Assembly (NCBI RefSeq): GCF_000429925.1
Contig: NZ_AUCU01000021.1
Span: 1-64,000 of the forward strand
Reading direction: 5' to 3'
Source: Desulfatirhabdium butyrativorans DSM 18734
Lineage (GTDB): Bacteria; Desulfobacterota; Desulfobacteria; Desulfobacterales; Desulfatirhabdiaceae
DNA length: 64,000 nt
Part shown: piece by piece, positions 20,354 to 34,444 of the stretch
Numbering within the stretch: position 1 is the first letter of the stretch
Layout of the letters: every line of letters starts with the position of its first letter
Translations under genes and position numbers: made by a program
Notes under the pieces: generated by a model
Database searches by the model: none
What the model saw: only the letters and a program-made list of their open reading frames with translations
What the model was told of the DNA's origin: nothing

Positions 20354-21931
20354 ATGGGGAAAATCCGCTCTCGTATAACCAAAATCTCCGTCCTGGCTTT
20401 CATCTTCACAGGTTTTGTCGCGGTATGGTTTGCTGCGGCCAAAGTAGCCATCCCGAACTCGCCGGACTTGATCCGGGCAGATGTCATTGCTATTGATACG
20501 ATGACAACTTTTGGGAAGTTGCAGCGCCCGATCGTCTATTTTCCCCACGATCTGCATACGAATGCCCTCAAACAACAGCAGAAAGACTGCTCGGTATGCC
20601 ATCTTGCTGAAAAGGACAGGCTTTCGCTGAAGTTCAAGCGGCTCACGGATGGATCGGCCGAAATGGTGATGAATACATACCATGAGCAGTGTATTTCCTG
20701 CCATCGCCGGACTGCCGAAGATAAGATGAAATCCGGTCCTGTCACCTGCGGCGCTTGCCACAGCGAAATCCCAAAGTATTTCTCGAATCGCAAGCCCATG
20801 GGGCTTGATAACTCCTTGCATGCCCGCCATACAAAAGCCCTCGAAAACAAATGCGAATTGTGCCATCACGAATACGACGCCCAGGCCAAAAAACTGATCT
20901 ATGTCAAAGAAAAAGAGGGGACCTGCCGGTATTGTCATCAACAGACTACCCAGGAAAACCGGATTGCCTACCCCATTGCCGCCCATATTGCCTGCATTGA
21001 CTGTCATCGTAAGACCGAGGCAACCGGCAAGAAGGCAGGGCCTGTGCAGTGCGCCTCCTGCCACGATCCATCCGCCCAGGCCAAAATCGAGAAGCAGAAG
21101 GAGATTCCAAGACTCAACCGCAAGCAACCCGATACCGTATTGCTCAAGACATCGAAGGAAGCAACGCTCCAAGACGCCAAACTTGCCTTTGTTCCATTTG
21201 ATCACAAGGCCCATGAAACCTATTCGGATACATGCCGTGTTTGCCATCACAAGCAGATGAGCAATTGTATCGTTTGCCATACCCTTGGTGGTACAAAAGA
21301 CGGGAAATTCATAACCCTCGAAAAGGCAATGCACGCGAGAAATGACGCCGCTTCCTGTATGGGGTGCCACGATCTGAAAAAGGCCGATATTGCCTGTGCC
21401 GGATGCCACACACCGATGGCTCAGAAAAGGCTGTCCGAGGCGCTATGTATTCAGTGCCATCAGGCAGATCGTCGCTCACTGGATACCCAATTGCAGCCCA
21501 TCGAAGATGCAGTGCTTGCAAAATCTCTTCTGGAAGCACGCAAACCCGTGCCGGCAGTTCTAAATGAGCAGATGATGAAAGATGTACCGGAAAAGATCGT
21601 CATTCAAGCACTTTCCGACAAATATCAGCCGGTCGATTTCCCGCATCGAAAAATTGTGATCACGTTGCTGAAAAATACAGGAAACAGCAAGTTGGCCGGT
21701 TATTTTCACCAGAGTACGCTGACGCTTTGCCAGGGATGTCATCACAACAGCCCGGCCTCTGTTACCCCGCCGAAATGCCAAAGCTGCCACAGCGTACAGC
21801 CAAGATCCGATACGATTTCCAAACCCGCCTTGATGGGGGCTTACCATATTCAGTGTATGGGATGTCATCAGAACATGGCCATGGAACACCCGATGGGATG
21901 TACCGAATGCCACAAGGAAAAACCCCATTGA
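20354..21931 (+). CDS. hmcA: High-molecular-weight cytochrome c, 16 hemes (HmcA)
   Basis: Periplasmic multiheme cytochrome of the Hmc transmembrane redox complex of sulfate reducers, thought to pass electrons between the periplasmic cytochrome c3 pool and the membrane. 525 residues with an N-terminal signal peptide (hydrophobic stretch about 12-28). I count sixteen CxxCH heme motifs, from CSVCH to the final CTECH, the number described for HmcA, plus many extra histidines for bis-His ligation. AAGGA lies 8 bases before ATG 20354. First gene of a six-gene hmc operon. Confidence 0.95.
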   Translation: MGKIRSRITKISVLAFIFTGFVAVWFAAAKVAIPNSPDLIRADVIAIDTMTTFGKLQRPIVYFPHDLHTNALKQQQKDCSVCHLAEKDRLSLKFKRLTDGSAEMVMNTYHEQCISCHRRTAEDKMKSGPVTCGACHSEIPKYFSNRKPMGLDNSLHARHTKALENKCELCHHEYDAQAKKLIYVKEKEGTCRYCHQQTTQENRIAYPIAAHIACIDCHRKTEATGKKAGPVQCASCHDPSAQAKIEKQKEIPRLNRKQPDTVLLKTSKEATLQDAKLAFVPFDHKAHETYSDTCRVCHHKQMSNCIVCHTLGGTKDGKFITLEKAMHARNDAASCMGCHDLKKADIACAGCHTPMAQKRLSEALCIQCHQADRRSLDTQLQPIEDAVLAKSLLEARKPVPAVLNEQMMKDVPEKIVIQALSDKYQPVDFPHRKIVITLLKNTGNSKLAGYFHQSTLTLCQGCHHNSPASVTPPKCQSCHSVQPRSDTISKPALMGAYHIQCMGCHQNMAMEHPMGCTECHKEKPH

Positions 21932-21983
21932 TCGCGTATGCGGAACATGATTTCCTATTCCGGTAAATTGTAGAGGTCAACAC

Positions 21984-23042
21984 ATGTCCTTATCACGTCG
22001 AAAATTTCTGGGTTGGATGGGTGCCGCAGGAACCGGAACTCTGCTCAAAAATTCATCTGCAAATGCGGCATCGAATGCCTATTTTTCCGGATATCCGAAC
22101 AGTTATGCCATATTGCATGACATCACCCGCTGTGTCGGATGCCGATCCTGTGAAGCAGCATGCAACAGCGTCAACGAACTGCCGGTACCTGAAAAGCCAT
22201 TCGCGGATCTGTCGGTTCTTGAAACCAGGCGCAGGACGACGGCAAAAGCCTACACGGTGGTCAACAAATTTTCATCGGTTGCTAAACCGGATCAAAGCGT
22301 CTATGTGAAAAAGCAGTGCAACCATTGCCTGGAACCTGCCTGCGCCTCTGCATGTTTTGTGCGGGCCTTCAAAAAAACGCCCGAAGGCGCCGTCACCTAC
22401 GATGCCAGCGTCTGTGTCGGATGCCGTTACTGCATGATCGCCTGTCCTTTTGAAATTCCGGCTTATGAATATGACAAAGCCCTCGAGCCCCGTGTCATGA
22501 AATGCACGATGTGTTATCCCCGCATTCAGAAGGGACTTCTGCCGGGTTGTGTCCAAGCTTGCCCGAAAGAAGCCCTGACTTTCGGAAAACGAAAAGATAT
22601 TTTGAAAATTGCCAGAGATCGTATCGGCAATCATCCAGATCGCTATATCGATCACATTTATGGCGAACGAGAAATGGGCGGAACCAGTTGGCTCTACCTT
22701 TCGGGGGTTCCTTTCTCCTCGATTGGGATGCGCGAAGACCTGGGCGTCACACCGGCGCCGGAGCTCACGTCGGGCGCGCTCGGTGCTGTACCCATTGTGG
22801 TTGGGTTGTGGCCTGTGTTGCTGACCGGCATTTATGCCATCTCCAGACGCAAAGAAAAGGTTGCGGAAGCGGAAAAGCGGGAAGCCGTCGATATGGCTGT
22901 GGCGGAGACGCGCAGAGAAGCAGCTTCCCAATTGGATGCCGCCCTGGATAAAGCCAGAAAGGAAAGGGACAGCGCTGTGCAGCAGGCTGTGAAAAAAGCC
23001 TTGGAGGATGCCAAAAAGGCGCAACAGGAGGAAACATCCTGA
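21984..23042 (+). CDS. hmcB: Hmc complex iron-sulfur subunit HmcB
   Basis: Periplasm-facing ferredoxin-like subunit of the Hmc complex. 352 residues. The N-terminus has a twin-arginine-like SRRKFLG followed by a hydrophobic stretch. Four cysteine clusters bind [4Fe-4S] centres: [35 protein letters not shown] and the CTMC ... CVQAC set. A C-terminal membrane helix (about 265-285) anchors it, followed by a charged coiled-coil tail rich in E, K and A. Its TGA overlaps the ATG of hmcC by one base. Expected to link HmcA to the NrfD-like HmcC. Confidence 0.94.
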
Positions 23043-24211
23043 TGTCTGAATCAACTGCCATTGCCAAAAAACCCGTTTTTACCCCCTTCAACCTGCTTGC
23101 CGGCATCATCGTGGCGATTGGTCTGCTCATCACGGTATTGCGGTTTACGGGTGGGTTGGCTGCCGTCACGAATCTGAGCGATGACAATCCCTGGGGAATC
23201 TGGATCGGATTCGATCTGCTCTGCGGGGTTGCCCTGGCTGCCGGTGGGTATGTCACCTCTGCTGCCGTATACATTTTTGGGTTGAAACGCTACCATAGTG
23301 CGGTTCGCCCCGCCATTTTGACCGGGTTTTTGGGGTATGCCCTGGTCGTTTTCGCGCTGCATTACGATGTGGGGCGGCCCTGGCGGCTGCCGTACCCGTT
23401 TGTCGTTCAGCAGGGTACGACCTCCCTGCTTTTCGAAGTGGGGGCCTGCGTGGCGTTGTATCTGACGGTGTTGTTCATCGAATTTACACCTGCAGCGCTC
23501 GAATGGCTCGGTCTCAAGAAGGCCCGAAATCTTGTGGTCAAACTGACGATGCTGCTGACCATATTCGGTGTCGTGCTGTCGACTTTGCATCAATCTTCCC
23601 TGGGTGCCCTGTATCTCATTGCCCCATCCAAACTTCATCCGCTTTGGTACAGCACGTATTTACCGGTGTATTTTTTTGTTTCGAGCATCATCGCAGGACT
23701 TTCGATGGTACTTTTTGAGAGCACGATGTCCCATCATTATTTCGGTGACAAACTGGATGAAACCCACAAGCGGGAATCGCTCGGTGTGACGCTGGGATTT
23801 GGAAAGGCGGCATCCCTGGTGTTGGCCGGTTATTTTACGATCAAGATCATCGGGATGTCTGTGGCCAACACGTGGCATTATCTCAACTCCGGTTACGGCG
23901 CTTGGTTTCTGGTGGAGATGCTGGGGTTTGTGGCGCTTCCCTGTTTTCTCTATGCGGTCGGGGTTCGTGACAGGAACGTGAAGCTCATTCGCTACACGGC
24001 GGCGTGGACCGTTCTGGGTATCGTCGTCAATCGTTTCAATATTTCCCTTATCGCATTCAACTGGCATCTGCCGGCCAGCCAGCGTTATTTCCCTCACTGG
24101 ATGGAAATCATGATTTCAGTATTCATTGTCACGGTCGGTATACTGGTTTTCCGATTTATCGTGACACGCATGCCGATTCTCAACGAACATCCGGAGTACA
24201 GCGGGCACTGA
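23042..24211 (+). CDS. hmcC: Hmc complex NrfD-like membrane subunit HmcC
   Basis: Integral membrane subunit of the NrfD/PsrC family, about ten predicted helices in 389 residues, with the family's DNPWGIWIGFDLLCGVALAAGGY segment early and LHQSSLGALYLIAPSKLHPLWYS in the middle. Members of this family exchange electrons with quinones or couple to charge movement. Placed between HmcB and small HmcD exactly as in characterised hmc loci. Confidence 0.94.
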   Translation: MSESTAIAKKPVFTPFNLLAGIIVAIGLLITVLRFTGGLAAVTNLSDDNPWGIWIGFDLLCGVALAAGGYVTSAAVYIFGLKRYHSAVRPAILTGFLGYALVVFALHYDVGRPWRLPYPFVVQQGTTSLLFEVGACVALYLTVLFIEFTPAALEWLGLKKARNLVVKLTMLLTIFGVVLSTLHQSSLGALYLIAPSKLHPLWYSTYLPVYFFVSSIIAGLSMVLFESTMSHHYFGDKLDETHKRESLGVTLGFGKAASLVLAGYFTIKIIGMSVANTWHYLNSGYGAWFLVEMLGFVALPCFLYAVGVRDRNVKLIRYTAAWTVLGIVVNRFNISLIAFNWHLPASQRYFPHWMEIMISVFIVTVGILVFRFIVTRMPILNEHPEYSGH

Positions 24212-24226
24212 ACAAGGAGAATCTCG

Positions 24227-24391
24227 ATGGAAGGTGGTTTTTATACCTTGCAGGATTTCATGACGTTTACAAAAGGGGTAACCTATCTCCTGATGATCGT
24301 TTCCCTGATCGCCATTACCGGCTTCTGGCTCTTCCTGAGCGAACGGGATGATGACACATCCGATCCCCCACCGTCATCCAAACATGCATAA
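24227..24391 (+). CDS. hmcD: Small single-helix Hmc subunit HmcD
   Basis: A 54-residue protein with one membrane helix (about residues 18-38, VTYLLMIVSLIAITGFWLFL) and a charged, proline-containing cytoplasmic tail. AAGGAGAATCTCG precedes its ATG, which lies 15 bases after hmcC. Size and position match HmcD, the small membrane subunit between hmcC and hmcE; role beyond complex membership is unknown. Confidence 0.85.
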   Translation: MEGGFYTLQDFMTFTKGVTYLLMIVSLIAITGFWLFLSERDDDTSDPPPSSKHA

Positions 24392-24479
24392 CGTTTCCGT
24401 TCGAGGCTGTTTCGGACAGAACTTGTCTGTTTTCTGATTTCAAATCCTCCCGATTCCGGGAGGGACGAGGAGTTTGGCT

Positions 24480-25157
24480 ATGTATGAATTGGTGAGCGGC
24501 CCGTTGGCTTGGCTTTCGTTCGGGATATTTTTGATCGGGTGTATCGTCCGGATCGTTCTCTACGTCAAGGGACTCGACTGGAAGCTCGATCGGGTGACCT
24601 ATTCGGTCAATGTCTCCTATGGCATCAAGGGTGCCCTTCGATCGATCGGTTTCTGGATCTTTCCGTTCGGCACCCAGAGCTGGCGAAACAATCCTTTTCT
24701 GACGATACTCGTGTTCGGCTTTCACATCGGGCTGCTGGTGACCCCGATTTTTCTGATCGGTCACAATGTCCTGCTCTTCGAGCGCTGGGGGATCAGCCTC
24801 TGGACAATGCCCGAAGCCCTTGCCGATATTCTGACCCTACTCGTGATGGTCTCGGCCCTTTTTCTGCTGCTGCGGCGGCTTGCCCTGCCGGAAGTGCGCA
24901 TTCTCACCGACGGCATGGATTATCTGGTGCTGCTCATTGCCGTCATGCCCTTTTTCACCGGTTACATGGCGCATATCCAGGCATCTTCCTACTCGTTCTG
25001 GATCGTTTGTCATATCCTTTCCGGCGAGGTAATGCTGGTGGCCATCCCCTTTACCAAATTGTCCCATTTTGTCAATTTTTTTCTCTCCCGTGCACAGTTG
25101 GGTATGGATTTCGGCATTAAACGCGGTGGGATGAAAAACAAGGGCATGGTGTGGTGA
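24480..25157 (+). CDS. hmcE: Hmc complex b-type/NarI-like membrane subunit HmcE
   Basis: About 225 residues with five or so membrane helices, resembling the gamma/NarI-like cytochrome b subunits of respiratory complexes (HmcE, TmcC, DsrM). Histidines in hydrophobic context (FGFHIGLLV near 80, VCHILSGEVML near 180) could ligate heme b. Start at ATG 24480, seven bases after GAGGAG; the upstream TTG is too close to that site. Partner of HmcF. Confidence 0.9.
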   Translation: MYELVSGPLAWLSFGIFLIGCIVRIVLYVKGLDWKLDRVTYSVNVSYGIKGALRSIGFWIFPFGTQSWRNNPFLTILVFGFHIGLLVTPIFLIGHNVLLFERWGISLWTMPEALADILTLLVMVSALFLLLRRLALPEVRILTDGMDYLVLLIAVMPFFTGYMAHIQASSYSFWIVCHILSGEVMLVAIPFTKLSHFVNFFLSRAQLGMDFGIKRGGMKNKGMVW

Positions 25158-25227
25158 GCTGGCGCATTGCGGAACGAATCCGCCAATTCTTTGAGTAGAA
25201 CCATTTTTCAAGTGGGTGAATCCGATT

Positions 25228-26610
25228 ATGCCTGAAGGAACGCTTTGTAATAAAAAACCGGTTACGACCAAGGAAGAGCTCGATGCGCTGCTCGCGGATA
25301 AAAGCGGCAAGGTGTATTACGAGGAAATGAAACACCTTGATGTGGACAAGGCAGCGCTTCGAACGACTCTGAGCAAAACCTGCAAATCCAGAATGCGCAC
25401 CTGGCTGGAAATTTGTGCGCATTGCGGCATGTGTGCCGAGTCCTGTTTTTTCTATCTGGCCAACAACAGGGACCCGGAGCAGGTGCCCTCCTATAAAATT
25501 CAGTCAACCCTTGGGCAGATCGTCAAGCGGAACGGCGATGTGGATACCGAATTCATGATTCAGGTCATGGATACGGCATGGGGGAAATGTACGTGCTGTA
25601 ACCGATGCGGCATGTATTGCCCGTTTGGCATCGACATGGGGGTCATGTTCGGTTATCTGCGAGGGCTGTGTTTTTCTCAGGGATTCGTTCCCTGGGAAAT
25701 GAAAATCGGCTCCGGCATGCATCGCATTTTTCGGGCGCAGATGGACGTAACCCCCGAGGACTGGGTCGATACCTGCCAGTGGATGCAGGAGGAAAACGAG
25801 GAGGAATGGCCTGGTCTTGAAATTCCGGTGGACAAGGAAAATGCGGATATTCTATATACGGTGAATGCGAGGGAACCCAAGCACTATCCGGAAGATATCG
25901 CCGAAGCGGCCATCCTGTTTCATATTGCCGGCGAAAATTGGACGGTGCCCAGTGTGGGATGGGAGGAAACGTCTCTGGCCATGTTTGCCGGAGACTGGGA
26001 AGGCTGCAGGCTCCAGGTGCAGGAAGTGTATGGGGCTATGGAACGGCTCAAACCCAAACGCATGGTCGTGACCGAATGTGGGCATGCCTACCGCGCCACT
26101 GTGATCGAAGGGCCTTATTGGGCGGGGCTGCGCTCCGGCAAGACACCGGTGCCGAGCTTTCATTATGTGGAATGGGTGGCTGAGGCGCTGCGTACCGGTA
26201 AACTCAAGATCGACCCGGCCAAACGGATCAAGGAACCGGTAACCTATCAGGATTCCTGCAACTACATCCGGAATGCCGGACTCAAGGAATGCGCTCGGGA
26301 AATCATGAGCCATATCGCCGAGGATTTCAGGGAGATGTCTCCGTGCAAGGAGCACAATTTCTGTTGCGGTGGCGGAGGCGGCATGAATGGGGTGGGGCGC
26401 TACCGGGAGCAACGCAATATCGGCCTCAAGGTCAAACGGGATCAGATACTTGCAACCGGGGCGAAGCTGGTCATTGCTCCCTGTCATAACTGCTGGGATG
26501 CCATCCGCGACATGGAGGAGGTTTACCATATCGGTATTCGATGGTCTTTTCTGAAACCGCTTCTGCTCCGGATGGTCGTGGTCCCCGAACATTTGAAGCC
26601 TCAGGAATAA
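25228..26610 (+). CDS. hmcF: Hmc complex cytoplasmic iron-sulfur subunit HmcF (HdrD-like)
   Basis: Cytoplasmic Fe-S subunit related to heterodisulfide reductase HdrD, TmcB and DsrK. About 460 residues. Two ferredoxin clusters ([11 protein letters not shown] and [11 protein letters not shown]) are followed by CCG-type cysteine motifs in the second half ([21 protein letters not shown]), the sort that binds a non-cubane cluster in HdrB. Start set at ATG 25228; GTG 25216 is in frame. It would accept or donate electrons on the cytoplasmic side, for instance for sulfate reduction. Confidence 0.93.
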
Positions 26611-26783: not shown

Positions 26784-27320
26784 ATGAACAGCGTGACCTT
26801 GACTGCCAAAGGGAAGCTTGTCTCGGAAGGCAGGCAAGTGGATTCAAAACCTTTGATGGTTTTGAGTTCGGCGCTTGTTTTGGAGCCAGCCTGCACGTTG
26901 CGAAGTTTTTTGCGGATGATCGAGACCTATGTTGTTTTCGAGGAAATCAATCCCTTCTGGTCCGATCATTTGGCGCAATATCGGTTATGCTCCAAAACCA
27001 GTTCAGTCGATTCAGGCCTTGACCACTTGCTTCTGAACAAAACCATTGAAATGATCGCATTCCCCGGAGAACCAAGGCTGGAAATTTACCATTCGCTTTA
27101 CGGGGTCAAAGGAAACGAGACGCTCGAAATTCGGTTTTTCACGCTGGATGGCCTTCTCGATCTACCCTTTCGGCTCGGGAAGCTCAAGCATGTCGTTTTT
27201 GGTGACAGCATCGATTTGTTCGAATTTGAAACCGTCTATACGCTTTTTGAAGTCATTGATGCTGTGGCATGGGAGCTGAGTTTTCATGGGACGCAGCGAG
27301 CCTGTACATTACGGAGGTGA
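26784..27320 (+). CDS. Unknown protein between hmcF and the Usp gene
   Basis: 178 residues, soluble, with no signal peptide, cysteine cluster or motif I recognise. Hydrophobic alternation in the second half (MIAFPGEPRLEIYHSLYG, LEIRFFTLDGLL, KHVVFGDSIDLFEF) suggests a beta-rich fold. The gap to hmcF is 173 bases, and its end overlaps the ribosome binding site of the Usp gene. From memory, the tmc locus of Desulfovibrio also has a small hypothetical gene beside a Usp gene and regulators, so this may be its counterpart; unproven. Confidence 0.6.
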   Translation: MNSVTLTAKGKLVSEGRQVDSKPLMVLSSALVLEPACTLRSFLRMIETYVVFEEINPFWSDHLAQYRLCSKTSSVDSGLDHLLLNKTIEMIAFPGEPRLEIYHSLYGVKGNETLEIRFFTLDGLLDLPFRLGKLKHVVFGDSIDLFEFETVYTLFEVIDAVAWELSFHGTQRACTLRR

Positions 27321-27322
27321 CG

Positions 27323-28243
27323 ATGTTCAAGAAGATCATGTTTGCGACAACTGGAACGCCGGTTTGCGACAATGCGGCACATGTAGCCTTCGACATAGCG
27401 AAAAAATACGATGCAAAACTCTATACCTTTCATGTGCTTGGCCTGCCTTCCCGCGGTTTCAGCACCATGGTCACTGATGTTCGCACCGGACAGGTTGAAC
27501 AATATGATACGGACTATGTGGCCTGGGTCAGGGAAGAGCTCAAGAACACCTACGACAAATATATCCGGGAATTTCAAAATTATGAGATCGATGCCGTGGC
27601 AGGAATTCCGGGTACCGAGATTCTTCGCTTTGCCCGGCAGAAAGATGTCGATCTCATCGTGATGGGGGCGCACTCCAGGCAGGAAGAAACCGGAGCTGCC
27701 CGGTATCGGGGCGCTGTTGGCACGAACATGCAGCATGTTGCCCGGAGTGCGCGCTGCCCGGTATTGATCGTGAGTCGTCCCTGCACAACTTGTTTGTGGT
27801 ATTTCTCGAACATCGTTTTTGGAACGGATTTCAGCAGGCAGGCCTTTTCGGCCTTTCTTTTCGCCAAAAAACTGGCCAAGGAAATCGGCAGCAGACTGCA
27901 CATTTTTCATGCATTGGATATGAGCGCCATGCATGCGGGGAAAGTCGTTTCCCAGGAGGAAATCGAGGCCAACATCGAAGCGGCCAGAGATAAAATCGAG
28001 AAAACCTATGTGTCCCATCTCGGTGATTATGACAATTACGACGTCGATATATGGGAAGGTATTCCTTATGTCGAAATCCTCAAGTATTCCAGGGCGAAGA
28101 ATGCGGACCTCATTGTCATGGCCCATCATGCCAAGGAAGTCGATCCGGATCAGGCCATTCTGGGGAGCACGGTCGAGCAGGTCGTTCTTCGGGCTAGCTG
28201 CCCCGTAGCCAGCGTAAATCATCCTGACAAGGTCAGCGGATGA
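27323..28243 (+). CDS. Tandem-domain universal stress protein
   Basis: 306 residues made of two UspA domains (about 1-150 and 165-305). Each has the DLIVMG or DLIVMA strand and an ATP-loop-like stretch before the last strand (RGAVGTNMQHVARSARCPVLIV; ILGSTVEQVVLRASCPVASV). GGAGGTGACG immediately precedes ATG 27323; a longer reading from 27269 overlaps the upstream gene. Usp proteins bind ATP or AMP and tune stress responses. Located between the hmc genes and signalling genes, so possibly a cytoplasmic energy sensor for the locus (inference). Confidence 0.9.
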   Translation: MFKKIMFATTGTPVCDNAAHVAFDIAKKYDAKLYTFHVLGLPSRGFSTMVTDVRTGQVEQYDTDYVAWVREELKNTYDKYIREFQNYEIDAVAGIPGTEILRFARQKDVDLIVMGAHSRQEETGAARYRGAVGTNMQHVARSARCPVLIVSRPCTTCLWYFSNIVFGTDFSRQAFSAFLFAKKLAKEIGSRLHIFHALDMSAMHAGKVVSQEEIEANIEAARDKIEKTYVSHLGDYDNYDVDIWEGIPYVEILKYSRAKNADLIVMAHHAKEVDPDQAILGSTVEQVVLRASCPVASVNHPDKVSG

Positions 28244-28258
28244 AAAAGGAAAGACCCG

Positions 28259-28672
28259 ATGGGCCCGATCAAGATTCTCGTGGTTGACGATGAAATGGAC
28301 ATGAGGATCTATTACACAACCCTGCTCAAATCCGCCGGATATCAGCCAATCGCTACGCGAGATGGGGTCGAGGGCTACCAGCTGGCCAGGGAATTGTTTC
28401 CGGATGCGATCGTTCTGGATATCATGATGCCGGGTGATGGCGGGGTCAAAATGTACACGGCATTGAAAAGAGATCCTGAGCTCGACAAAACCCCCGTCAT
28501 CATGGCCTCTGCAGTTTCCGAAAAGAGCTTTCAGCATTACCTGGCCATGCTTGCCGCACGGATAGGCCAACCGATTCAGGCGCCTTCGGCCTATCTCGAA
28601 AAGCCCATCGAACCCGAGATACTGCTTTCCACCCTTTCCAAAATCCTCAACGTTCGATCCGACTCGACATGA
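28259..28672 (+). CDS. Single-domain response regulator (CheY/DivK-like)
   Basis: 137 residues, receiver domain only: acidic pair DDE near 10-12, phospho-acceptor D54 in VLDIMMPGDGG, and conserved lysine in YLEKPIEPE. With no output domain it must act by protein-protein contact or as a phosphorelay shuttle. Stop overlaps the following kinase gene start (ATGA), pointing to coupled synthesis. Hmc loci of Desulfovibrio carry the regulator gene rrf1 nearby; whether this is an orthologue cannot be told here. Confidence 0.9.
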   Translation: MGPIKILVVDDEMDMRIYYTTLLKSAGYQPIATRDGVEGYQLARELFPDAIVLDIMMPGDGGVKMYTALKRDPELDKTPVIMASAVSEKSFQHYLAMLAARIGQPIQAPSAYLEKPIEPEILLSTLSKILNVRSDST

Positions 28673-30621
28673 CGGTGCATTCCCCTTCCTCGAGGCAAAA
28701 AATGACTTCCAAACTGCTGCTCGTTGATGACGAGGAGGGTATACGAACGGTTCTGGGGATCAGCCTCGCAGACCGGGGATATTCGGTTCTGACGGCTGCC
28801 GATGGCCAGGAAGCGTTCAATGTTTTCCGCCGCGAAGCGCCGCCGATTGTGCTGACGGACATCAAAATGCCTGGCATGGACGGCATCGAGTTGCTTCAGC
28901 GGATCAAGGCCGAATGCCCCGATACGGAAGTCATCATGATTACGGGCCATGGGGATCTCGATCTCGCCATTAAAAGCATCCAACTGGAAGCCACCGACTT
29001 CGTCACCAAACCCATTCACGATGCCGTTCTGGACATAGCACTGGGCAGAGCTCAGGAAAGGATTGCCCTTCGTCAGCAGCTTCGGGAACATACCGAAAAC
29101 CTGGAACGGCTTGTTCGGGAAAAATCGGCCCGGATCGTCGAATTGGAGCGGCTGGCTGCCATCGATCAGGCGATGGAAGGGCTGGCTCAGGCCATGCGGG
29201 GTATTGCAAGCGACATGGGGGATGCCCTGCGTTATTTCAACGAGATGCCGTGTTTTGTGTCGATTCATGATAAGAACCTGATAGTCGTAGCGGCCAACGA
29301 TTTGTATCGAACCCGGCTGGGAAAAGGTGTCGGGGATTTCTCATGGATGGTCTATATCCATACGGATACCGATCCCGAGTCGTGTCCTGTCGGGAAAACG
29401 TTTCAGGCGGGCGCAGGGCAGCGGGAGCGTACGGAAATGCTTCTGGCGGATGGCGCGACGACACCTGTCATCGTTCATACGGCGCCGATTCGCGATCGGG
29501 AAGGCATGCTCGAGCTCGTCCTGGAAATCGCCGTCGATATTTCGGAGGTCAAGCGGCTCCAGGATGAGCTGGACACCACACAGCAGCGCTACCGCCAGCT
29601 TTTCGAAGAAGCGCCTTGTTATATTACGGTTCAGGATCGTTCGTTATCCATCGTTGCCGCAAATCGACGGTTTCAGAGCGATTTTGGGGAACCCGGGGAG
29701 CAACGCTGTTTTTATGCGTATAAACGTAGATCGGAGCCCTGTCCAAATTGTCCGGTTCAGGAAACTTTTCTGGATGGCAAGCCGCACCAGAGCGAGATGG
29801 TGGTGACATCCCGAAACGGGGATCAGTTGATTCTTCTGGTGGGGACAGCGCCCATCGTAAATGCGTCGGGGGATATCCATCAGGTGATGGAGCTCGCCAC
29901 AAACGTGACCCAGATCCGGAATCTCGAGGATCATTTATCGAAGCTTGGGCTTTTGCTCAGCACCGTTTCTCATGGCGTCAAGGGAATGTTGACGGCTCTG
30001 GATGGCGGGATATACCGGATTCGGAGCGGCCTGCGGCGAGAAGATACGACTTTGGTGCAGGAAGGGCTTTCGGATGTGGAGGATGTTTCGAGTCGAATTC
30101 GCAACACCGTTCTCGATATCCTGTTCTATGCCAAGGAAAGGGAAATTGAGCCTGAATTGGTGGATGTGATGAATGTGCTCTACGATGCTGTCCAGTTGAT
30201 CGAGCCCAAGATGGCCAAACATCCCCTTCAAAGGCGCTGGGAGTTTGACCCGACTGTCGGGACGGCATGGATGGACCGCAGCGCGATCCGTACGGCGTTG
30301 GTGGCAATCCTGGAAAATGCTGTTGAGGCATGCCTGGAAGACAGCACCAAATCGGAACATCGAATCCGTTTTTTTGCGACGCGGAAAGGAAATGAGCTGG
30401 TCTTTGAAATCGAGGACAACGGTATCGGGATGGACCCGGAGACTGTGGAACGGATTTTCTCGCTTTTTTTCTCCTCCAAAGGTAAGCGGGGTACGGGGCT
30501 GGGGCTTTTCATCGCCAAAAAAATTATCCAGCAGCATCGTGGCAGAATCGAAGTCCATTCAGAAAAAGGGGTTGGAACGACATTTCGCCTGATTCTGCCA
30601 GCAAACAAAGCGCAAGCCTGA
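28669..30621 (+). CDS. Receiver-PAS-PAS-histidine kinase
   Basis: 650-residue cytoplasmic hybrid in inverted order. Receiver at about 14-125 (D64 in LTDIKMPGMDG), a coiled coil about 128-165, PAS 1 about 192-292 and PAS 2 about 306-410. A kinase core follows with H435 in TVSHGVKG, N-box ENAVEAC near 549-555, DNGIGMD near 583-589 and GTGLGLFIAKK near 608-618. PAS 2 carries RCFYAYKRR then PCPNCPVQETF, a cysteine-rich motif; PAS 1 has only SCPVGKTF. No membrane segment, so input is cytoplasmic or comes through the receiver. Probably partnered with the CheY-like protein just upstream. Confidence 0.93.
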   Translation: MTVHSPSSRQKMTSKLLLVDDEEGIRTVLGISLADRGYSVLTAADGQEAFNVFRREAPPIVLTDIKMPGMDGIELLQRIKAECPDTEVIMITGHGDLDLAIKSIQLEATDFVTKPIHDAVLDIALGRAQERIALRQQLREHTENLERLVREKSARIVELERLAAIDQAMEGLAQAMRGIASDMGDALRYFNEMPCFVSIHDKNLIVVAANDLYRTRLGKGVGDFSWMVYIHTDTDPESCPVGKTFQAGAGQRERTEMLLADGATTPVIVHTAPIRDREGMLELVLEIAVDISEVKRLQDELDTTQQRYRQLFEEAPCYITVQDRSLSIVAANRRFQSDFGEPGEQRCFYAYKRRSEPCPNCPVQETFLDGKPHQSEMVVTSRNGDQLILLVGTAPIVNASGDIHQVMELATNVTQIRNLEDHLSKLGLLLSTVSHGVKGMLTALDGGIYRIRSGLRREDTTLVQEGLSDVEDVSSRIRNTVLDILFYAKEREIEPELVDVMNVLYDAVQLIEPKMAKHPLQRRWEFDPTVGTAWMDRSAIRTALVAILENAVEACLEDSTKSEHRIRFFATRKGNELVFEIEDNGIGMDPETVERIFSLFFSSKGKRGTGLGLFIAKKIIQQHRGRIEVHSEKGVGTTFRLILPANKAQA

Positions 30622-30639
30622 GAAACCGCCCGCTGGCGC

Positions 30640-30699
30640 AAATTTGCCTGTCCGCAGGCGGCGCACTGCTCCAAATAGGGGTTTTTCGTTCAGGCACTA
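30640..30699. repeat. Inverted-repeat element, copy A (truncated)
   Basis: Right half of the element found complete at 38320-38446: shares CCTGTCCGCAGGCG, the CTGCTCC...AATAGGGG segment and the terminal GTTTTTCGTTCAGGCAC. The left terminal repeat is missing. It lies between two convergent kinase genes, and its outer end supplies the TAG stop codon of the minus-strand kinase (30697-30699). Confidence 0.75.
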
Positions 30700-31827
30700 C
30701 GTACATTTGGGCAGGTGAATTTCCACCGTTGTGCCATGTCCCCATTTCGATTCGAGTCGGAGCGTCCCCCCATGCTTCTCTACGGTTCTGCGGGCCGTCA
30801 TGAGTCCGATGCCGGTTCCCCGGGTCCCTTTGGTCGTATGGAACCACTGCAAAATCCGCTCCAAGGTTTTGTCATCCATACCGATTCCCGTATCGATTAC
30901 CCGGAAGCAAACGCTATTGTCCCTGGTATCGGCGATGGTTAGCCGGATGGATTTGGGTTTGTCGGGGGGCTGTTCCATGCAGGCATCCAGGGCATTGAAG
31001 AGCAGGTTGGACAATACGGTTGTCATGGCATCGGCATCCATCCAGAGCTCACCGGTGAAGGCCGCTGGTTCGAAATCGATCGGAATGCCTGCCGCTTTGG
31101 CCTGACCCGAGACAGTTTCTATGGCTCGGATAGCGGGTTCGTTCGGATTACACCAACGCAGGGAAAGCTCGGATGCCTTTCCGTAATTCAATAGATCCAT
31201 AGCCAGTTTGTAGAGTTTTTCCGCATTTCCTTTCAACATCTCCCAGCCTTGTGACAGCGCGGTGGCATCGTTCATGTCGATACCTTTCTCCAGAACGAAC
31301 ATCCCGCCCCGCAATCCGCCTGCAATGTTTTTGATCGTATGCGAAAGCCCGGCAATGGCCTCGCCGACGGCGGCCAGCCGCTCGGTTTCCAACAGTCGTC
31401 TGGTCTTTTCCTCAACGAGCTGCTCCAGTTTTTCCGTGTATTGCCGCAGTTGGTTCCGCATCGCGATGCGCTCTGAAGCTCGGTGGATGGCGATTTCCAA
31501 CGCTTCATTGCCGATGGGCTTGGTGATGAAATCGGTGGCCTCCATTTTCAGGCTCTGAATGGCCAAATCCATGTCTCCATGACCCGTCATCATGATGACC
31601 TCAATATCCGGATCACGGGTTTTGATGGCCTTCAAAAGCTCCAGCCCATCCATTCCCGGCATTTTGATGTCGGTCAGCACAATGGATGGCCTGGCCTGAT
31701 CGATTTGCAGGAGCGCTTCATCGGCACTCTCTGCCGTGCTTACCGAATGTCCCATATCCATCAGGGAAATGGACAGGACCGTCCGGATGCCGCTTTCATC
31801 GTCTACAACCAGAATTTTCTGGCTCAT
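30697..31827 (-). CDS. Receiver-histidine kinase hybrid
   Basis: 376 residues: receiver about 3-115 (D53 in LTDIKMPGMDG), coiled coil about 118-155, kinase core with H163 in GLSHTIKN, N-box LFNALDAC, DTGIGMD and GTGIGLMTARR. It is a shorter paralogue of the facing 650-residue kinase, sharing the receiver and the ER...RxQLRxxTExLExLVxEK linker but lacking PAS domains. Start at ATG 31827 after AAGGATGG. Overlaps the upstream sensor kinase by ATGA, so the two are made together and phosphotransfer from that kinase to this receiver is likely. Confidence 0.93.
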   Translation of the reverse strand: MSQKILVVDDESGIRTVLSISLMDMGHSVSTAESADEALLQIDQARPSIVLTDIKMPGMDGLELLKAIKTRDPDIEVIMMTGHGDMDLAIQSLKMEATDFITKPIGNEALEIAIHRASERIAMRNQLRQYTEKLEQLVEEKTRRLLETERLAAVGEAIAGLSHTIKNIAGGLRGGMFVLEKGIDMNDATALSQGWEMLKGNAEKLYKLAMDLLNYGKASELSLRWCNPNEPAIRAIETVSGQAKAAGIPIDFEPAAFTGELWMDADAMTTVLSNLLFNALDACMEQPPDKPKSIRLTIADTRDNSVCFRVIDTGIGMDDKTLERILQWFHTTKGTRGTGIGLMTARRTVEKHGGTLRLESKWGHGTTVEIHLPKCT

Positions 31828-34100
31828 TGACCATCCTTTTCGCAAGCCTTGGGAAATTGAACAATAAAGGTCGCTCCGCCTTCATCGTTGTTGACGGCCG
31901 AAATCTCGCCGTTGCATTCCCGGATGATGCCGTAGCTGATGGAAAGACCAAGGCCTGTGCCTTTGCCGACTTGTTTGGTGGTGAAAAAAGGCTCGAATAT
32001 CTTCTCGAGAAGCTCTATCGGAATTCCGCAGCCCGTATCGGCAACCGATACAAAGACCGCATTATCCAGTTCCTCACTCTTGAGTGTGATGGTTTGGGGA
32101 ATTGATGGATTTGAATTCTTTTCCATCTTTTCCTCGATGGCATCCCGGGCATTGATCAATAGGTTGATAAAAACCTGCTCCAGCCTGGCCGCATCCGCCC
32201 AGACGAGCGGTATTTCTTCGGTAAGCGCCCACCTGACTTCAATCCCTCTGGCTTTAAATTGCTGGCTGAAGATTTCGAAAGATTTTTTCAGGACGTCGTT
32301 GAGATTGACTTTTTCAAGACGCATCTCGGATTTTCTACCGAACTGGCGCATGTGGCTGATGATTCTTGTGGCGCGATCCACATGGCTGTCGATTTCCTTG
32401 GCCAGGGTGTTCAAGATGGGTTCGGGTATCGTTTCGTTTTTCTCAATTTTTCGGATAAAAAAGCTGCTTGCGGTTTTGATGACCGAAAGCGGCTGATTCA
32501 GTTCATGCGCGACGCCGGTGGCCATCTCGCCGAGGGTGGCCATTTTGCTGGCCTGAATAATCTGCTGTTCCGCCTCAATTCTTTTGGTTTCATCCGATGT
32601 TGTCACCAGCAAAACCGTTTTTCCCGCATATTCCGAAGGAGAGATGCGTATATTCACGAAGAGAATTCCGCCTTTACGGTGAATCTGCCTGGCCTTGTGG
32701 ACGACAGAGGCTGTCAGCATCTTGAAGGCGAAATGTTCCCGCTCGCCTTCCGGAAACAGGTTGAGAAAACTGTTCCCGATCAAATCGGTTCGCTGGAAAC
32801 CATACAGGGTTTCCGCCGAGGTATTGCAGTCCAGTATGTCGAGTGTTTTGATGTCCAATACAAAGACAGGGTTCGGGATGTTGTTGAATATGTCGTGATA
32901 TTTGCGCTCGGATTCCGCAAGCTGCTCTTCCAGTTGTTTGCTTCTGGAAATATCGATGGACATTTCCATGGCGGCCACAATCTGGCCATCGCTGTCCTTG
33001 ATGGGTGCCGTTTGGACCACCCAATAGGTTTTGGTTCCGTCCTTGTTGTAGCCCGTCTCTTCGCTGTAGTGGCTTTTGCCGTCTTCAAAAGTCCATTCAA
33101 CCGGGCATTCCGTGCATTTTTCATTTCGATCCTTGTAAGCTTTATAGCAAAAATCACCGGGCTTGGGATCGAATCGTTTGGAGAACTCCCGGTTGTACTG
33201 CAGCAGCCGGTATTCCCGGTCTTGAACGGTAATGATGCAGGGAACCCGCTCAAACAGCGTCTGATACTGGAGACGTTGTCGTTTAAGTTCCTGCTGTTTT
33301 TCCTGAATGCGTTTTCCCATGGCTTCGAAGGCTTCGGCCAGTTGCCCAAGTTCGTTGCGATAGGGGATTGAAATGGGGGTTGAAAAATCGCCTTTGGCGA
33401 TGCGATGCGTTCCTGCAATGAGCTCCAGAATGGGCTTGTTGACGAAACGTAAAATGAAACAGAAGATGACCGCGGCAAACGAGAGGAAAAGAAATGCCGA
33501 GAAAAAAATCACGCCTTCCTCGAAGTACAGAATGTCCTGGTCTGTTTCCTTAAGCGAGACGACGACATCGAGTGCGCCGAGAATTTTCTTTTCAGGCGAG
33601 TGAAAATGACAGGCATCGGTGGAACAACCCGGAGCATTCCGGATCGGGGAGATAACGCCTACGGCGCGATAGCCTTCCGGTGTCTGCAGCAATCGAATCC
33701 GTTGGGAAAGCGGCAAGTCGATGGCAGGTGGATCGGCTTTATGGCAGACATGGCAGGCCTCGTTGCGGATGTTGGTCCGGGCGTTTATCTCGGACAAATT
33801 CTTGCTGAACTTGATTTCACCTTCCTTGTTGTAAATACGGATGCTTTCGATGGCATCGAGTCGGCCAATATTCTGGATACTCTGGTTGATGTTGTCCCGG
33901 GCGTTAAGCATCATGGCGTATTCCGTCCCCAGTTTGATGGTTTCACCGAGCCTGTCTGTCCAGACCAGGATGTGGTTCATCATCTTTTCTTTTTGGTAAC
34001 GGATATTGAAATAGGCCCAGATCGTGAAACCGGCGAACAGGGTAATCCCCATCACGAAGATCAGGTGATACCCGAGGTTGTTTCGAATGCGGCTCAGCAT
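31824..34100 (-). CDS. Membrane sensor kinase with predicted heme c periplasmic domain
   Basis: 758 residues. Membrane helices at about 12-31 and 197-217 enclose a periplasmic domain of about 165 residues. That domain contains a canonical heme motif CHVCH (116-120) and a CX4CH motif (CSTDACH, 159-165), so one or two covalent hemes are predicted. HAMP about 218-270, PAS 1 about 283-385 with a Cys motif ([19 protein letters not shown]), PAS 2 about 400-505, kinase core with H532 in [11 protein letters not shown] and [11 protein letters not shown]. Start at ATG 34100 after AGGGA; TTG 34154 would add 18 residues. Likely reads periplasmic redox state next to the hmc complex. Confidence 0.92.
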
Positions 34101-34368: not shown

Positions 34369-34444
34369 GGGGCTGTAGCTCAGCTGGGAGAGCGCATGAC
34401 TGGCAGTCATGAGGCCAGGGGTTCGATCCCCCTCAGCTCCACCA
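34369..34444 (+). tRNA. tRNA-Ala (anticodon GGC)
   Basis: 76-base cloverleaf with all arms. Acceptor GGGGCTG pairs with CAGCTCC (one G-T), D arm GCTC/GAGC, anticodon stem CATGA/TCATG around loop CTGGCAG giving anticodon GGC, T arm AGGGG-TTCGATC-CCCCT. The encoded 3' end is ACCA. Reads GCC/GCU alanine codons. Confidence 0.97.

Follow-up and report, generated by a model that had tools for sequence, protein, structure and literature searches.

The window analysed here, a 64,000-nt stretch of the Desulfatirhabdium butyrativorans DSM 18734 genome (contig NZ_AUCU01000021.1, positions 1 to 64,000, forward strand), encodes on the reverse strand a sensor histidine kinase of 758 residues (31824..34100; ATG at 34100, stop at 31824) whose periplasmic loop carries two predicted sites of heme c attachment. 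The protein is organized as a first transmembrane segment (TM1), a periplasmic Cache domain, a second transmembrane segment (TM2), and consecutive HAMP, PAS, PAS, HisKA and HATPase_c domains. HAMP, both PAS regions, HisKA (PF00512, 3.4e-8) and HATPase_c (PF02518, 1.4e-22) all exceed the Pfam cut-offs, and the two elements that identify a sensor histidine kinase, a HATPase_c domain and a HisKA domain with its phospho-acceptor histidine, are both present, the histidine (His532) being kept in all 86 kinases compared. The periplasmic loop gave no match in the Pfam scan.

The sensor domain spans residues 33-196 (33513..34004, reverse strand, as are all features of this gene) and adopts a single-Cache fold according to AlphaFold and to structure and profile matches. 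Its first heme motif, CHVCH (residues 116-120; 33741..33755), and its second, CSTDACH-F-H (159-167; 33600..33626), which consists of a CX4CH sequence (159-165) followed by His167, both lie between TM1 and TM2/HAMP. A preliminary description of this DNA had placed CHVCH and CSTDACH in the periplasmic loop, and both are found there and are conserved in homologues. That description leaves unmentioned Met63, His167, the four cysteines of the first PAS domain and the recurring gene order Hmc-Usp-RR-kinase, all of which are conserved. A third element, Met63 (33912..33914), is predicted from its conservation and from alignment with Met60 of the Geobacter protein GSU0935 to be a switchable distal axial ligand. 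On the cytoplasmic side, the first PAS domain contains four cysteines (288, 318, 329 and 332; 33105..33239) that are 100% conserved in 77 kinases and 99% conserved in 86, marking a possible iron-sulfur or thiol site; speculatively, this domain could carry an iron-sulfur cluster that reads the cytoplasmic side.

Conservation and fold of the two-motif sensor domain

A phylum-wide search of 247 genomes returned relatives in 79 of them at E < 1e-10, and relatives are present in 63 of the 116 genomes sampled from the order of the host. From the phylum search and 80 named loci we assembled 137 distinct two-motif domains, in which Met63, Gly94, Cys116, Cys119, His120 and Cys159 are 100% conserved and Cys164, His165 and His167 99% conserved; the seven Cys and His residues of the two motifs are all 100% conserved in the 77 near-full-length kinases. 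A chance origin of the Cys motifs is ruled out by this (near-)invariance. Homologues with neither motif had been put forward as a finding that would overturn the heme assignment, and none was found among the aligned homologues. Similarly, none of the weakest hits aligned to the domain is devoid of a heme motif, with two of them (L152 and L157) aligned across part of the domain only but with their motif still evident. The 12 distant relatives in the full-length set have a single motif, at the second site, which is CXXCH in 11 of the 12, and the first motif falls in a gap in the alignment of these one-heme relatives.

The AlphaFold model of the sensor domain (predicted local distance difference test 82.7) is a single Cache domain. 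Its closest experimental fold is the extracellular domain of WalK (VIA-align Z 14.7, root mean square deviation 1.9, 137 residues); the WalK/YycG Cache domain (4ywz, 5is1) is similar in fold but is without known heme motifs, occurs in other bacteria and serves another signal. At the level of sequence profiles, the best matches are 3b42 (GSU0935; 4.6e-9) and 3b47 (GSU0582; 6.5e-8). The profile alignment places the second motif onto the heme motif of both structures (Cys140/Cys143-His144 in GSU0935), and Met63 onto the first Met of the MM pair in 3b42, which is residue 60 when counted from the motif (chain His110 corresponding to His144). Thus, the switching Met of GSU0935 corresponds to a residue that is invariant in the two-motif family. 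PF21563 (Mcp40H-20_sensor, the class-40H chemoreceptor sensor) gave weak to moderate matches in 29 of 34 family members (best 5.1e-9), with the window kinase alone below the cut-off (0.0027, 18.4 bits). Judged by its sequence, the sensor domain is a homologue of the c-heme chemoreceptor sensors GSU0935 and GSU0582. These were not among the top rows of a Foldseek search with the sensor-domain model, which does not weigh against homology as the 3b42 and 3b47 structures are domain-swapped dimers (PMC8396549).

The biochemistry of these relatives is informative. In one subunit of GSU0935 the heme is ligated by His144 and Met60, potentials of -251 and -156 mV are given, and the Met is bound in the reduced and released in the oxidised state (PMC8396549), so the nearest characterised relatives work by a redox-linked ligand switch. 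Since the second motif and Met63 match the heme site of GSU0935, the first CXXCH would represent an extra heme, inserted between early strands. The shared features are therefore a homologous periplasmic Cache-type domain, the position of the heme motif and the Met60/Met63 pair; in contrast, GSU0935 and GSU0582 have one heme, a CXXCH motif and chemoreceptor output, whereas the window kinase has two motifs, CX4CH-X-H at the second site and kinase output. A preprint assigns GSU0582/0935 to the sCache_heme family (PF11845; PMC12889525), which resembles our domain in the idea of a covalent-heme Cache and in a heme site between late strands. The PF11845 sensors described have one motif, however, and the window kinase, with two, lies under the family threshold: we rejected membership in PF11845 (Tll0287-like) as the window kinase gave no match at E up to 0.1 and matches occurred in only 3 of 34 family members (best 0.0015). 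A profile comparison by hhalign with a PF11845 set gave a probability of 52% and E 1.5e-4 over 28 columns around the motif.

Other proteins with two motifs have been listed, namely Geobacter GSU0591 and GSU0599 and two Anaeromyxobacter proteins (PMC8396549, PMC3831638), in keeping with the earlier suggestion that related heme-domain kinases occur in Geobacter. GSU0599 is a two-component protein, and CbcD, a HAMP-containing subunit of the Cbc5 menaquinol oxidoreductase complex, has two heme sites (PMC7894505) and is, we infer, GSU0591. Going by these published lists, GSU0599 and GSU0591/CbcD very probably belong to the same two-motif family; a functional study of either was not found in the open-access literature. 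We observed comparable proteins of about 280-310 residues, with a two-heme sensor and a partial HAMP domain but no kinase, encoded near two-heme kinases (L132-L135 and G063/G025/G153/G202), and these pairs look like the CbcD/GSU0599 pair. In the phylum search, such pairs occur in several genomes of other families, some near HmcB/C-like genes. As far as it is described where it is cited in PMC8396549, DcrA of Desulfovibrio vulgaris is likewise a periplasmic c-type heme redox/oxygen sensor of a sulfate reducer, and it is a chemoreceptor rather than a kinase.

Linkage to electron-transfer operons

The preliminary description had located a 16-heme cytochrome complex about 5 kb from the kinase gene, and this is confirmed by an hmc operon on the forward strand (20354..26610) in which HmcA, HmcB, HmcC, HmcE and HmcF each exceed the curated NCBIfam equivalog cut-offs, these being the five subunits covered, which identifies the Hmc complex. 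HmcA contains 16 CXXCH motifs, and a distance of 5.2 kb separates the end of HmcF at 26610 from the stop codon of the kinase. The overlapping receiver-kinase gene of that description is equally evident as a receiver-histidine kinase (REC-HK; 30697..31845, reverse strand), with Response_reg (1.4e-29) and HATPase_c (2e-23) Pfam matches, whose ATG at 31827 (31827-31825) overlaps the kinase stop codon (31826-31824) as ATGA. Asp15, Asp16, Asp59, Lys109 and His169 of REC-HK are 100% conserved in 62 homologues, and REC-HK is likely to be the phospho-acceptor partner of the heme kinase.

This arrangement recurs across genomes. The next gene downstream of the kinase encodes a receiver domain in 62 of the 69 loci with downstream sequence, and specifically REC-HK in 56. 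Of the 37 loci with 9 kb or more of upstream sequence, the kinase follows a complete Hmc operon in 7 and an Hdr operon (HdrB/FlpD) in 24. The collinear order HmcA-B-C-E-F, a 178-residue protein, a universal stress protein (Usp), a response regulator, a REC-PAS-PAS-kinase, the heme kinase and REC-kinase is found at five loci (L041, L056, L071, L072 and L114). Genes of these kinds lie near 33 of 38 heme-kinase loci compared with 3 of 20 control loci centred on random kinases of the same genome; two of the three positive controls are receiver-type matches only (79-82 bits), which brings the true control rate closer to 1 in 20. Among the 116 genomes of the order, and counting within broken assemblies, 12 of 82 domains have HmcF no more than 20 kb away and another 11 have a TmcB-like gene at up to that distance, where chance predicts about 1%. 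Co-occurrence of the kinase with HmcF in these genomes is weak (odds ratio 2.6, p 0.015), and the evidence for linkage is therefore gene order, not genome co-occurrence. Collectively, these counts strongly support linkage of the family with electron-transfer operons of the Hmc, Tmc and Hdr types, at a level that greatly exceeds the control.

A second two-motif kinase of the same genome (G000:C66) lies in an Hdr operon, and the HdrA gene beside it (L117, 15118-18519, reverse strand) encodes a receiver domain inserted after the first ferredoxin region (Pfam 1.1e-30). The HdrA of a further locus has the same insertion (L073, 5077-8520, forward strand; 5.5e-30), and at both loci HdrC/HdrB, the two-heme kinase and the receiver-kinase that goes with it come immediately after HdrA. 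In 28 orthologues beside two-heme kinases, the HdrA receiver keeps its acidic pair, the phospho-acceptor Asp240, Thr268 and Lys290 without exception. An apparently intact receiver within HdrA next to the kinase suggests that the redox enzyme itself may be a target of the phosphorelay, and that phosphorylation may control electron bifurcation directly; we found no paper on an HdrA with a receiver domain in the open-access literature. FlpD (MvhD-like) genes in many Desulfobacterales genomes frequently contain a single in-frame TGA that is read through, which hints at selenocysteine.

A candidate redox sensor and its alternatives

That kinase genes of this family keep adjoining the main electron-transfer complexes indicates that the sensor probably reads electron supply and signals inward. 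We favour, with reasonable though not high confidence, the interpretation that the protein is a diheme sensor of redox state, or electron load, that starts a phosphorelay for Hmc/Hdr-type complexes. A covalent-heme redox kinase signalling to the overlapping receiver-kinase, as first proposed from the DNA letters, is the reading best supported by motif invariance, homology to GSU0935/GSU0582, the conserved Met, the downstream receiver gene and operon linkage.

Under this model, the periplasmic Cache domain would carry two covalent c-type hemes exchanging electrons with the pool of periplasmic cytochromes that delivers electrons to Hmc or takes them from it. Heme 2 (Cys159/Cys164, with His165 or His167) would be the ancestral site, with Met63 as its switchable distal ligand as in GSU0935, and heme 1 (Cys116/Cys119, His120) an added site for which the remaining invariant His of the second site, or another residue, is a plausible distal ligand. 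Release or binding of Met63 may move the N-terminal helix, a change that HAMP would relay to the kinase and that the four-Cys cytoplasmic PAS might modify. The phosphoryl group would then pass to the receiver of REC-HK and on to the Hmc-linked phosphorelay of response regulator and REC-PAS-PAS-kinase, with adjusted electron flow between periplasm and cytoplasm as the putative output. A more ambitious and distinctly tentative extension envisages a two-compartment redox gauge, in which the two periplasmic hemes and the four-Cys PAS weigh periplasmic against cytoplasmic electron load and the phosphorelay acts on redox enzymes such as HdrA rather than on transcription. If so, electron bifurcation would be switched by phosphorylation, most clearly via the HdrA receiver.

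Several observations weigh against a diheme redox sensor for these complexes. The loci are related by descent and the linkage counts are thus not independent, and numerous members of the kinase family are encoded at a distance from Hmc, chiefly at Hdr operons; that these kinases turn up again and again next to three distinct redox complexes, and in other families next to HmcB/C-like genes, nevertheless argues for function. The second motif tolerates changes in spacing, being CX4CH in 118 of the 137 domains, CX3CH in 16 and CX5CH in two, such that one site might hold no normal covalent heme. An experiment on any two-motif member was not found in the open-access literature. Moreover, one-heme Cache domains fused to signalling modules are reported to have properties of NO rather than O2 sensors (PMC12889525), and GSU0582/0935 bind both nitric oxide (NO) and carbon monoxide (CO) with displacement of Met60 (PMC8396549).

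These last two findings make NO sensing the main rival, in which the hemes would mainly sense periplasmic gas (NO, possibly CO) and displacement of Met63 would trigger the kinase as a defence of anaerobic electron-transfer complexes against nitrosative stress. We regard this as unlikely, yet as the most serious of the alternatives, as the persistent neighbours are Hmc, Tmc-like and Hdr operons, and HmcB/C-like operons in other families (detoxification genes were not systematically searched), and a redox-labile Met ligand is invariant in 137 domains. Less plausible still is that one site alone carries heme, the other Cys/His motif being a disulfide switch or a different metal site. The range of CX3CH to CX5CH at the second motif, its extra invariant His and the invisibility of heme in apo models would fit this idea, but the Cys and His residues of both motifs are all (near-)invariant, the first motif is a canonical CXXCH and the second lines up with a heme site established by crystallography. 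Heme attachment at CX4CH is, in addition, known from cytochromes c3, which also counts against a single heme. A plain electron relay from periplasmic cytochromes to the membrane, with heme chemistry that has no signalling role and a kinase answering another cue, recalls the short HAMP-containing Geobacter relative with two heme sites annotated as CbcD (PMC7894505) and is very improbable for a domain fused to HAMP-PAS-PAS-HisKA-HATPase, with an invariant phospho-acceptor His and a receiver gene adjoining in most loci.

What is new here is the predicted two-heme form of c-heme Cache sensors and its conserved link to Hmc and Hdr, a link that we found described only in part. The neighbours of hmc in Desulfococcus multivorans are reported to include regulators, a Usp and four kinases, with heme not mentioned (PMC5109826), and the open-access literature yielded no paper that connects a heme sensor kinase with Hmc. 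The two-heme kinase family is conserved and largely unstudied. For the question of how sulfate reducers choose the direction of electrons through Hmc, Tmc and Hdr, this widespread kinase family provides a concrete candidate for the sensor.

Neighbouring genes in the window

Four further genes follow hmc on the forward strand. The first encodes the conserved protein of 178 residues (26784..27320), which shares 47-60% identity with its counterparts in the Hmc clusters of other genomes and had no Pfam or NCBIfam matches; most Hmc clusters with the heme-kinase module encode it between HmcF and Usp. It is followed by the universal stress protein with two Usp domains (27317..28243), identified from Pfam and collinear clusters, and by a single-domain response regulator (28259..28672) whose closest NCBIfam model, the DVU0259/DivK family, is below cut-off. 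The REC-PAS-PAS-histidine kinase (28669..30621; Pfam) is a collinear neighbour in other Hmc clusters. Its second PAS has four cysteines (317, 347, 358 and 361) in the same pattern, C-x29-C-x10-C-x2-C, as the cytoplasmic PAS of the heme kinase. Within this part of the window (28259-34100), the heme kinase and REC-kinase are inverted and convergent with the genes before them, whereas most Hmc-linked relatives keep the pair on the same strand after the REC-PAS-PAS kinase. Upstream of the heme kinase lies a tRNA-Ala(GGC) gene (34369-34444, forward strand), which overlaps the listed start (34409) of an aroK-like open reading frame and thereby places the true aroK-like start further downstream.
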